A stretch of DNA of 58,596 nucleotides from Gammaproteobacteria bacterium (lineage in GTDB: Bacteria; Pseudomonadota; Gammaproteobacteria; Steroidobacterales; Steroidobacteraceae). The stretch covers positions 19,740-78,335 of the forward strand of contig PKXS01000024.1 of assembly GCA_003132425.1 (NCBI GenBank). The letters run 5' to 3'. The notes beneath the pieces are model-generated. The model was not told where the DNA came from, ran no database searches, and worked only from the letters and a program-made list of their open reading frames with translations. The position numbers and the translations under genes are program-made. This document shows positions 37,286-40,169 of the stretch, piece after piece. The number at the start of each line of letters is the position of its first letter. The first letter of the stretch is position 1.

Positions 37286-37319
37286 GAAAAAGGGGTCCTT
37301 GGAGTGGCCCCTTTTTTTT
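37286..37319. terminator. Intrinsic terminator downstream of puuD-like gene
   Basis: AAAAAGGGG - loop - CCCCTTTTTTTT hairpin with T-run. Confidence 0.85.
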
Positions 37320-37337
37320 GGCGGAGAGGGTGGGATT
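37319..37337 (+). repeat. Distal island junction: 19-bp direct repeat of the tRNA-Ser 3' end (att-like)
   Basis: TGGCGGAGAGGGTGGGATT identical to 40077-40095. Confidence 0.8.
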
Positions 37338-37472
37338 GTTCGCGGCTGCGCCGCGAATCCTCCGCTTCGCTCCGGACCGACGCGTGCGCGTTGTCCAAAA
37401 TCGCTGCGCGCTTTTGTCGAATCCACGGAAACGCAAATAGAAATCAGTAAGTTACCGAAATCTTGAAGTTCG

Positions 37473-37527
37473 CCGTCCCCTGGAATCCCCTCGCCTCCCC
37501 GCTTTTGGCAGTAGATTTGGCACTAGG
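37473..37527 (+). repeat. Imperfect copy of the integrase-distal sequence found at 39986-40030
   Basis: CGTCCCCTGGAATCCCC...TTTGGCAGTAGATTTGGCACTAGG versus CGTCCCCTGAAATCCCC...TTTGGCAGTAGTTTGGCAGTAGG. Confidence 0.7.
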
Positions 37528-37559
37528 AAGGCGCTACCACACGATCTCGGTGCGCTTTC

Positions 37560-37595
37560 TTGACACCTTGTACCTTGAATGGTACAGTGTACCTT
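37560..37595 (+). promoter_or_regulatory. Promoter/operator of the toxin-antitoxin pair
   Basis: TTGACA-17 bp-TACAGT; half-sites GTACC (37570-37574), GGTAC (37581-37585), GTACC (37589-37593); direct repeat TGTACCTT x2. Confidence 0.65.
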
Positions 37596-37611
37596 CCGAG
37601 GTCCGCCACTG

Positions 37612-37992
37612 ATGCCGGATAATACGAAGCGCAAGATTCTGCCCGCGATCTTCTATCGGACGGCCGCAGGATCGGAACCCGTTCGCGACTGGCTCAAAGG
37701 TCTGTCTCGCGACGATAAACGCATCGTCGGTCAGGACATTGCAACCGTGGAATTCGGTTGGCCGGTTGGGATGCCCCACTGCCGGTCGCTCGCCCCCAGG
37801 CGTGGGTTGTGGGAGGTTCGAAGCTCGCTGACAGGCAACCGCATAGGCCGGGTCCTATTCTTCATCCACGAGGGACAGATGGTGCTTCTTCACGGATTCA
37901 TCAAGAAGACTCAGCAGACGCCCGATCAGGAATTGGACCTTGCCGTGAAACGCAAGAAGGAGATCGAGAATGACGGAAAAACGAAAGAATAA
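37612..37992 (+). CDS. RelE/HigB-like toxin (phage Gp49-like family)
   Basis: FYRTAAGSEPVRDWLKGLSRDDKRIVGQDIATVEFGWPVGMPHCRSLAPRRGLWEVRSSL...RVLFFIHEGQMVLLHGFIKKTQQTP. Confidence 0.9.
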   Translation: MPDNTKRKILPAIFYRTAAGSEPVRDWLKGLSRDDKRIVGQDIATVEFGWPVGMPHCRSLAPRRGLWEVRSSLTGNRIGRVLFFIHEGQMVLLHGFIKKTQQTPDQELDLAVKRKKEIENDGKTKE

Positions 37993-38275
37993 GCATTTGG
38001 GCTCTTCGTTCGATGCCTATCTCGTGGAAGAAGGGCTCTATGAGGAAGCAACTTCCGTGGCCTGGAAGCGCGTGCTCTCCTGGGAGGTTTCCGAAGCGAT
38101 GAAGAAGGAAGGCATCAGCAAGAGCGAAATGGCCAAGCGTATGAACACGAGCCGCAGCCAGCTCGAACGCCTGCTCGACCCGGATAACCCCAACGTCCTC
38201 CTAGAGACGGTTCAAAAGGCGGCGGCGGCGGTCGGCAAGCGCATGACCATCAGCCTCGCGGATGCGCCCTCGTAG
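37970..38275 (+). CDS. XRE/HigA-like antitoxin
   Basis: Overlaps the toxin gene; HTH EAMKKEGISKSEMAKRMNTSRSQLERLLDPDNPNVLLETVQKAAAAVGKRM. Confidence 0.9.
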   Translation: MTEKRKNKHLGSSFDAYLVEEGLYEEATSVAWKRVLSWEVSEAMKKEGISKSEMAKRMNTSRSQLERLLDPDNPNVLLETVQKAAAAVGKRMTISLADAPS

Positions 38276-38465
38276 GGCTCCTGAACCGAGCAAGCTGTTC
38301 GAAGCCGAGCGTCGCATTCACCAGGTCTCGAAGAATAACGCGTGCCATTTCAGGTTCATCACTGAGAAACAGAGTTGCAGCCTCATCCAGGAGCGCTTTG
38401 GCGAAGGCAGCGTCTCGTTCGACCCGAGCCATTACGGTTTTCTTGAATTTACGAGTTAGCGCCAT
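38250..38465 (-). pseudogene. Truncated HigA/addiction-module antidote-like antitoxin (N-terminal part only)
   Basis: MALTRKFKKTVMARVERDAAFAKALLDEAATLFLSDEPEMARVILRDLVNATLGFEQLA then unrelated tail; HTH half missing. Confidence 0.65.
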
Positions 38466-38473
38466 CTCAAAAT

Positions 38474-38493
38474 TAGTAACGTAAACGTTACTA
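38474..38493. promoter_or_regulatory. Palindromic operator upstream of truncated antitoxin
   Basis: TAGTAACGT-AA-ACGTTACTA: perfect 9-bp arms, 8 bp upstream of the ATG. Confidence 0.65.
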
Positions 38494-38603
38494 TTTAGCA
38501 TAAGGCTGCGAACTAGCGCTTTTGCCCCAATGCGCCGTTTTTCGTAGGGTCCGACAGGCTCCTAGCGAATACGTGTTGCAAAAGTGATCGGACGAGGTTA
38601 ACG

Positions 38604-38621
38604 TACAACCATATGGTTGTA
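38604..38621. promoter_or_regulatory. Palindromic operator overlapping ArsR-family start codon
   Basis: TACAACCATATGGTTGTA, perfect 18-bp palindrome; the ATG at 38613 lies inside it. Confidence 0.65.
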
Positions 38622-38954
38622 GTTCGAAAAGAGAGCGAAGAATCGCTCAACCAGCTCTTCCGTGCTTTGGCCGATGGCACGCGCCGCGACATCTTGGCGC
38701 GGTCGCTCACGGAAACGCCGTCGGTATCCGATCTTGCTGCGCGGTACGAGATGAGCTTCGCCGCCGTGCAAAAGCACGTCGCCGTGCTCGAGCGCGCGGG
38801 TCTCATTCAGAAGCGTGCAAACGGCCGCGAGCAACTGGTCTCCACCAACCACGCGCGGCTCCAGCGCGCTGGCGAGCTCCTCGAATACTTCGAATCCATT
38901 TGGCGCCAGCGCATGGCGCAGCTCGACGATGTTCTTCTACCGAAAGGAAAATGA
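38613..38954 (+). CDS. ArsR-family HTH transcriptional regulator
   Basis: LNQLFRALADGTRRDILARSLTETPSVSDLAARYEMSFAAVQKHVAVLERAGLIQKRANGREQLVS. Confidence 0.92.
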   Translation: MVVVRKESEESLNQLFRALADGTRRDILARSLTETPSVSDLAARYEMSFAAVQKHVAVLERAGLIQKRANGREQLVSTNHARLQRAGELLEYFESIWRQRMAQLDDVLLPKGK

Positions 38955-39451
38955 TTATGCCGCTTACCTCTGTCACCAAAGACGCCGCAAAGCTCACCCT
39001 CACCGTCGTGGGCGACTATCCCGTTCCGCAAAAGCGCCTTTGGGACGCCTTTGCCGACCCGCGCCAGCTCGAGCGCTTTTGGGGACCATCCGCCTTTCCT
39101 GCCACCTTCACGCGTCATGATTTCAAAGTTGGCGGTCGCGCTGAGTACTTCCTGACTTTGCCGGAGGGAAAAAAGTGGAGCGGCTCCTGGAAGTTCACCG
39201 CAGTGCATCCAATCAGCTCTTTCGAGGCGCACGACGGCGAAGATAACGCCGAGGACCAGAACATGCCGGCGTCGATGACGTTCGCCTTCGAAACCACGCC
39301 GACGGGATCGCGTATGACCATCGTCACGCGGTTTTCAAGCGTTGAGGCAATGGAGCAAACGATTCCGGGCATGGAAGAAGGGCTACGCGCAGCAATGCCC
39401 CAACTCGACGCAGTGCTTGCTGAACCAAGCGCGTCCGCTGCGCACGCCTAG
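38951..39451 (+). CDS. SRPBCC/AHSA1 domain protein
   Basis: DYPVPQKRLWDAFADPRQLERFWGPSAFPATFTRHDFKVGGRAEYFL; ATGA overlap with the ArsR gene. Confidence 0.9.
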   Translation: MIMPLTSVTKDAAKLTLTVVGDYPVPQKRLWDAFADPRQLERFWGPSAFPATFTRHDFKVGGRAEYFLTLPEGKKWSGSWKFTAVHPISSFEAHDGEDNAEDQNMPASMTFAFETTPTGSRMTIVTRFSSVEAMEQTIPGMEEGLRAAMPQLDAVLAEPSASAAHA

Positions 39452-40076
39452 CAAGCTGTCGGATTTCGCGGCGGGCGTGAAGCGAGCTTATGCGAGGAAA
39501 GACCGCACCAAGACACAGGAGGACCGCGACGTGGAGCTTTGCCCGCGTGCGCTCGAGGTTCTAAAGCGCCAATTGGCGCTCCGGCAGGAGTACGTCGCGG
39601 CCGGCAAAATCCGGCATCAGCACCTCTTCTTCCTCGAAGACGGCCGCCCGATCAGCGACCCGGAAATCACTCGCTGGCGCTGGAGCGAGAGCATCAAGGC
39701 GCTCAATATTCGCAGGCGCGGACCCTACCACGCGCGGCATTCCTCGGTGACCTGGCAGCTCATGCTGGGAAAGAATCTGCTGTGGGTCGCGAAGCAGCAC
39801 GGACACAGCGTCGAGGTAATGTTGCGCATGTATGCCGGATGGCTCGACGGCACAACGGAAGCCGGCATTCACGCGATTAAACAAGCGATGGAAAAAAGAC
39901 CCGATGCGCGCGCTGCATTTTTGGATTCTCGAACCGCTATTTCCGCTGTAAATGCAGCGACAAATCGCGTCACGCAAATCGTGATTCGTCCCCTGAAATC
40001 CCCGGAATTTGGCAGTAGTTTGGCAGTAGGGAAAGACCTGAGTGACTCAAGTCTCAGAAACGATTCAAAAATTAAG
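39452..40076 (+). pseudogene. 5'-truncated tyrosine recombinase/integrase (C-terminal catalytic part)
   Basis: KDRTKTQEDRDVELCPRALEVLKRQ...PYHARHSSVTWQLMLGKNLLWVAKQHGHSVEVMLRMYAGWLDG; no N-terminal domains or Arg-I box; frame reads on into the tRNA. Confidence 0.8.
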
Positions 40077-40169
40077 TGGCGGAGAGGGTGGGATTCGAAC
40101 CCACGTGCCGGAATTACCCGACCATCCGATTTCGAGTCGGCGCCGTTATGACCACTTCGGTACCTCTCC
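40077..40169 (-). tRNA. tRNA-Ser(CGA)
   Basis: GGAGAGG/CCTCTCC acceptor, anticodon loop CTCGAAA, long variable arm, GTGGGTTCGAATCCCAC T-arm, G73, encoded CCA. Confidence 0.95.

Follow-up and report, generated by a model that had tools for sequence, protein, structure and literature searches.

The DNA beside tRNA-Ser(CGA) in the window (the whole analyzed stretch of 58,596 nucleotides) is very probably the remnant of an integrated island, with a dead integrase and a displaced att copy that is interrupted by a block of RtT type, most likely acquired later by recombination. The earlier note had reported an exact 19-bp copy of the 3' end of this tRNA gene, and a scan of the window bears this out: the 19-mer TGGCGGAGAGGGTGGGATT is found exactly at 37319-37337 and 40077-40095, 2758 bp apart from start to start, and these are still the only two matches in the window when up to three mismatches are allowed (0.02 expected). 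The duplication is not due to chance. The intact tRNA-Ser(CGA) gene was placed by ARAGORN at 40077-40169 on the minus strand (it is also matched by the Rfam tRNA model), with the right-hand 19-mer as its 3' end, which would hold the integrase-side att copy. The left-hand 19-mer, on the minus strand as well, corresponds to tRNA positions 58-76 and represents a displaced tRNA-Ser 3' end, the probable first part of the distal att copy. The repeat had been taken to be limited to 19 bp; it continues beyond an 80-bp block as CGAATCCACG (37418-37427, minus strand; CGAACCCACG in the tRNA), as seen from the sequence and from alignment to complete islands, which brings the att copy to ~23-29 bp.

The 19-mer does not occur at many unrelated positions in the genome, which the earlier note had named as evidence against an island. 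In the 4.08-Mb genome, a draft of 146 contigs with an estimated contamination of 5.74%, TGGCGGAGAGGGTGGGATT is present exactly at four sites, namely the two island copies and one site each in contigs C113 and C17. The C113 copy lies within a gapped tRNA-Ser gene (L004, 168-290), the body of which contains ~100 N, an assembly gap at shared tRNA sequence. The C17 copy (L001, 264-282) is an orphan near the contig start with no tRNA nearby; GCTCCGACGCCGG in antisense precedes it on the tRNA strand, and it is perhaps another displaced tRNA end. A copy with one mismatch elsewhere in the genome is the end of tRNA-Ser(GCT).

What is left of the tyrosine integrase is a C-terminal fragment that aligns over 39498-39902 (plus strand) to a 462-aa relative (residues 261-396, 64% identity), and its open frame extends into the tRNA. 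The PF00589 profile matched it with an E-value of 1.3e-4 and 22.3 bits, under the cut-off of 27.1, and about 135 aligned residues of the catalytic domain remain. Full-length relatives contain Arm-DNA-bind_2 and Phage_integrase domains. The window integrase lacks Arm-DNA-bind_2, the core-binding region and TGLRPSE, the stretch that contains the first catalytic arginine, as known for the family; the ARHS, HGH and tyrosine motifs are still present. As the N-terminal half of the integrase is gone, the island is predicted to be inactive and unable to move itself, and with these parts lost no excision as a circle would be expected. Relatives of the integrase occur in Povalibacter, Peristeroidobacter and Steroidobacter, among others; two genomes with such relatives, G565 (which has a protein identical to that of L063) and G576, probably belong to the family of the window's host. 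When 22 loci with such relatives were scanned, the 3' end of the integrase gene was directed towards the tRNA 3' end in 17 of the 18 that bear a tRNA, the targets being Ser(GCT), Ser(GGA), Met, Asp and Gln. Islands of the three named genera (L062-L066 and L072) share the integrase family, the position at a tRNA 3' end and the type of arm site with the window; unlike it, most of them have a long or full-length integrase, their targets are Ser-GCT and Met, and they carry no known block.

Distal tRNA-end copies could be located for seven islands with full-length integrases, all from the bacterial family of the window's host (probably Steroidobacteraceae-like): three in G003 and one each in G567 (at tRNA-Asp, 11.6 kb), G500 (16.2 kb), G512 (5.95 kb) and G505 (4.9 kb). 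Their distal ends contain, in order, the tRNA end, CGAA..., AATCARTAASTTACYGA, TCCCCT... and TTTGGCAGTAGATTTGGCAGTAG. When the 80 bp at 37338-37417 are left out, the left end of the window aligns to all seven complete islands with scores of 53-93 (shuffle maximum 34), and its arm sites are then 106 and 118 bp away from where the tRNA end starts, the very distances found in G500 and G505. The putative distal island end at 37442-37525 (plus strand) comprises AATCAGTAAGTTACCGA, which has a single occurrence in the genome, CGTCCCCTGGAATCCCC (37474-37490) and the arm-type sites TTTGGCAGTAG/TTTGGCACTAG (37504-37525). The putative integrase-side end at 39987-40030 (plus strand) comprises CGTCCCCTGAAATCCCC and two arm-type sites TTTGGCAGTAG, whose distances to the tRNA are 69 and 58 bp, compared with 68 and 57 bp in G576; the two ends share direct repeats. 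This alignment identifies 37418-37525 as a distal end of the island family to which the integrase belongs. In contig C83 of G003 (L150-L153), three same-family islands were observed in tandem at one tRNA-Ser(GGA), spanning ~66 kb in total, and every one of them has an integrase and a tRNA-end copy of its own.

The 80-bp block itself (37338-37417, minus strand) is extra DNA at one exact point. Its removal restores both the island alignment and the arm-site spacing. It interrupts the ~23-29-bp att copy at GGATT^CGAA, a point of the displaced tRNA end that lies in its T-loop. It is a GC-hairpin block with the layout of an RtT unit; its predicted RNA fold is no better than that of shuffled sequences.

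The left flank carries a terminator hairpin with a T-run on both strands (37290-37319). The earlier note had placed the left junction at the terminator of a puuD-like gene, a gene name that does not agree with its profile match, Urate_ox_N (PF06181). The tRNA-Ser(CGA) gene adjoining mltF is conserved among relatives, and in the two closest ones, G017 and G007 (77-78% identical over the tRNA and mltF), a terminator is joined straight to the tRNA 3' end and the second copy is absent. Since a terminator adjoins the tRNA directly in both genomes, the one at the left of the window's repeat most plausibly belongs to the tRNA itself and was displaced by 2.76 kb by the island; the junction thus lies at a terminator that belongs at least as much to the tRNA as to the neighboring gene. 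The empty-site check suggested for this locus is answered in part by these two genomes. Genes further left differ in them, so that they are not strict alleles of the window locus, none of the relatives yielded a strictly empty allele that has the puuD-like gene at its left, and the closest puuD-like homologues there have no tRNA within 1.5 kb. With relatives only 70-78% identical, the integration event would be old. At this tRNA, G020 retains the right junction of the window beside an integrase in a more advanced state of decay, and integrase remains were also found there in G026.

Besides the integrase fragment, the island encodes a Gp49-like (RelE/HigB-type) toxin candidate (37579-37992, plus strand; PF05973, E-value 1.2e-18), an HTH antitoxin candidate (37970-38275, plus strand) with a borderline PF13443 match of 21.9 bits against a cut-off of 22, an ArsR/SmtB-like regulator (38613-38954, plus strand; NF033788, 54.1 bits against a cut-off of 55) and an AHSA1/SRPBCC protein (38957-39451, plus strand; PF08327, E-value 3.7e-17). 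The gene content described earlier is largely reproduced, including the toxin-antitoxin candidates and the ArsR/SRPBCC pair; the exception is the supposed antitoxin relic, an 83-aa ORF (38250-38501, minus strand) with zero matches in Pfam, NCBIfam or PADLOC. A defence system was considered among the island genes and dismissed, PADLOC having given just weak matches to the HTH and toxin domains.

RtT repeats (Rfam RF00391, covariance-model cut-off 45 bits) provide the closest parallel to the block. According to a passage in PMC4986893, which cites Bosl and Kersten (1991), RtT RNAs are released from tRNA operon transcripts and have been implicated in how cells respond when amino acids are short. 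The E. coli tyrT locus has four RtT units scoring 133-138 bits, of which three stand at intervals of 178 bp. Their break points equal those of the window block: a tRNA 3' end that reaches to the T-loop is followed by a hairpin block of 70-90 bp and then by CGAAC. In the window, too, a tRNA 3' end closes the unit and the hairpin block stands at the T-loop position. Unlike RtT, the window block lies within an island end far from the tRNA and reaches 13.8 bits (E-value 2.6) against the cut-off of 45, so that it is not an RtT member by score; a search of the 4-kb region against Rfam at E-values up to 1 missed RtT. It also has no 5' strand complementary to the T-stem and acceptor 3' strand, because island-end sequence occupies that place. 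Locus L111, with the same layout, scored 58.4 bits, above the cut-off, and nine other loci were weak. The literature searched held little on the origin of RtT repeats or on T-loop insertions, and no account of RtT origin was found there.

A pattern search detected Ser-tRNA-end units in 17 of 369 gammaproteobacterial genomes (the window's included) from 16 genera, and the reversed pattern, used as control, gave 0 matches. The second half of the T-arm follows 70-89 bp on in 18 of the 19 distinct units outside the window, even though the pattern is independent of it, and 14 of the 19 have an intact tRNA-Ser no more than 370 bp away. Next to tRNA-Ser(CGA), blocks resembling that of the window occupy the same point in G018 and G009; others were found at tRNA ends of the Ser(GCT), Arg(ACG) and Arg(TCG) types. 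A dispersed REP-like repeat was rejected as an identity for the block: its core occurs in 1-4 copies per genome in 6 of 60 genomes, in a single genus and nearly always at tRNA ends. Searches with the core against named database genomes returned only protein-coding look-alikes.

Several other arrangements were observed at such blocks. In G010 (L087, contig C152, ~220-370), the hairpin block lies in the T-loop of a tRNA-Ser(GGA)-like pseudogene of the same genus, which is of almost full length and precedes an intact tRNA-Ser(GCT). Double blocks are present in L055 (the island end at tRNA-Ser(CGA) of G009) and in L084 (tRNA-Arg(TCG) of G018), and they share one joint, TAGT then GCTCG, as if modular. 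In the window's own genome (L019/L175, contig C13 at ~63.4 kb), a relic resembling tRNA-Arg(ACG), whose T-loop contains a hairpin block of similar kind, adjoins another integrase gene, which is read towards the relic; contig C13 also carries tRNA-Ser(GCT) and tRNA-Arg(ACG), at a distance of 13.6 kb. This is perhaps a second island.

In the reading that we favor, an Arm-DNA-bind_2-type tyrosine integrase would have put the island into tRNA-Ser(CGA) at its 3' end; the tRNA would have been restored on the integrase side, and the original tRNA end, with its terminator, moved 2.76 kb off. The N-terminal half of the integrase would then have been lost, at the place where the ArsR/AHSA1 pair now abuts the fragment, and the displaced tRNA end would separately have gained the 80-bp RtT-type hairpin block in its T-loop. 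The most likely source is recombination with an RtT unit beside tRNA-Ser, the flanks of such units (tRNA end and CGAAC) matching the att copy. In G009 the block at the island end (attR) differs from that of the resident RtT unit at only one position (84 of 85 identical), whereas blocks of different genomes are ~66-93% identical, which favors copying within the locus. The window genome has no resident RtT unit at tRNA-Ser(CGA), and the source of its block is not directly visible. Crossover points in tRNA genes lie in the anticodon loop, the T-loop or at the T/acceptor junction (PMC4383910); if the T-loop is where the window integrase crosses over, the block would break the att site too and would be expected to hinder excision.

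It is highly improbable that the repeat is only an RtT unit beside tRNA-Ser, with the intervening DNA having come by some route other than integrase duplication. Units with the same 19-bp end do lie 81-370 bp from an intact tRNA-Ser in many gammaproteobacteria, and at this very tRNA-Ser(CGA) in G018, G004 and G009; 37418-37525, however, matches the distal end of the integrase's island family with exact spacing, and a plain RtT unit differs there. We also think it rather unlikely that the block was already in the attP of the island before integration, as part of the end of a sub-family. The island ends of the window and G009 (block plus distal arm) are 84% identical over 179 bp, above the 74% of the host mltF, and G010 has a block at the same place in a tRNA-Ser(GCT)-type end, as this would predict. 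Against it, the block is missing from all seven complete islands, and that of G009 is closer to the resident RtT unit (99%) than to the window block (80%). An RtT unit with an island behind it, fused by a deletion between two CGAAC stretches that joined the unit's block to the island end, is a doubtful alternative of similar weight. RtT units are common at tRNA-Ser(CGA) in the genus, and the block, the left terminator and the presence of just two 19-mers would all be accounted for in one step; yet the deletion must have used a 5-10-bp match instead of the adjacent 19-bp match, and must have recurred in G009 and G010.

The claim of a tyrosine-integrase island thus holds through the homologous ends, the arm sites, the integrase-tRNA adjacency and the empty-type sites, while the 19-bp duplication put forward for it is unspecific in view of RtT-type units. 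As in the tRNA islands recognized by Islander (PMC4383910), the island locus has a tRNA gene, integrase sequence and, at the far end on the downstream side of the tRNA gene, a 3' tRNA fragment in the same orientation; the island's length of 2758 bp falls within 2-200 kb, and the site is unoccupied in G017 and G007, with different left neighbor genes. It departs from those islands in that the integrase is only a C-terminal fragment (22.3 bits for PF00589 against 27.1) and the displaced tRNA fragment is broken inside the T-loop. It is an ordinary dead Islander-type tRNA island, and its one unusual feature is the RtT-type block in the displaced tRNA end.

Because RtT-type units with the same 19-bp end stand, in many other gammaproteobacteria, too close to tRNA-Ser to leave room for an island between, a 19-bp tRNA-end repeat alone is no proof of integration, and in genomes with such units it is weak evidence of an island. 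Searches for islands by duplicated tRNA ends will meet RtT-type units that give an identical signal. The interrupted att copy also ties RtT tRNA-end repeats to integrative islands, features that are usually described apart. As a more speculative and less likely extension, RtT hairpin blocks may be transferable modules that settle at the T-loop of displaced tRNA ends, the att copies of islands among them, spread between tRNA genes and, when they sit in an att copy, lock the island in place. If this were true, RtT repeats beside tRNA genes would be partly scars of old islands.
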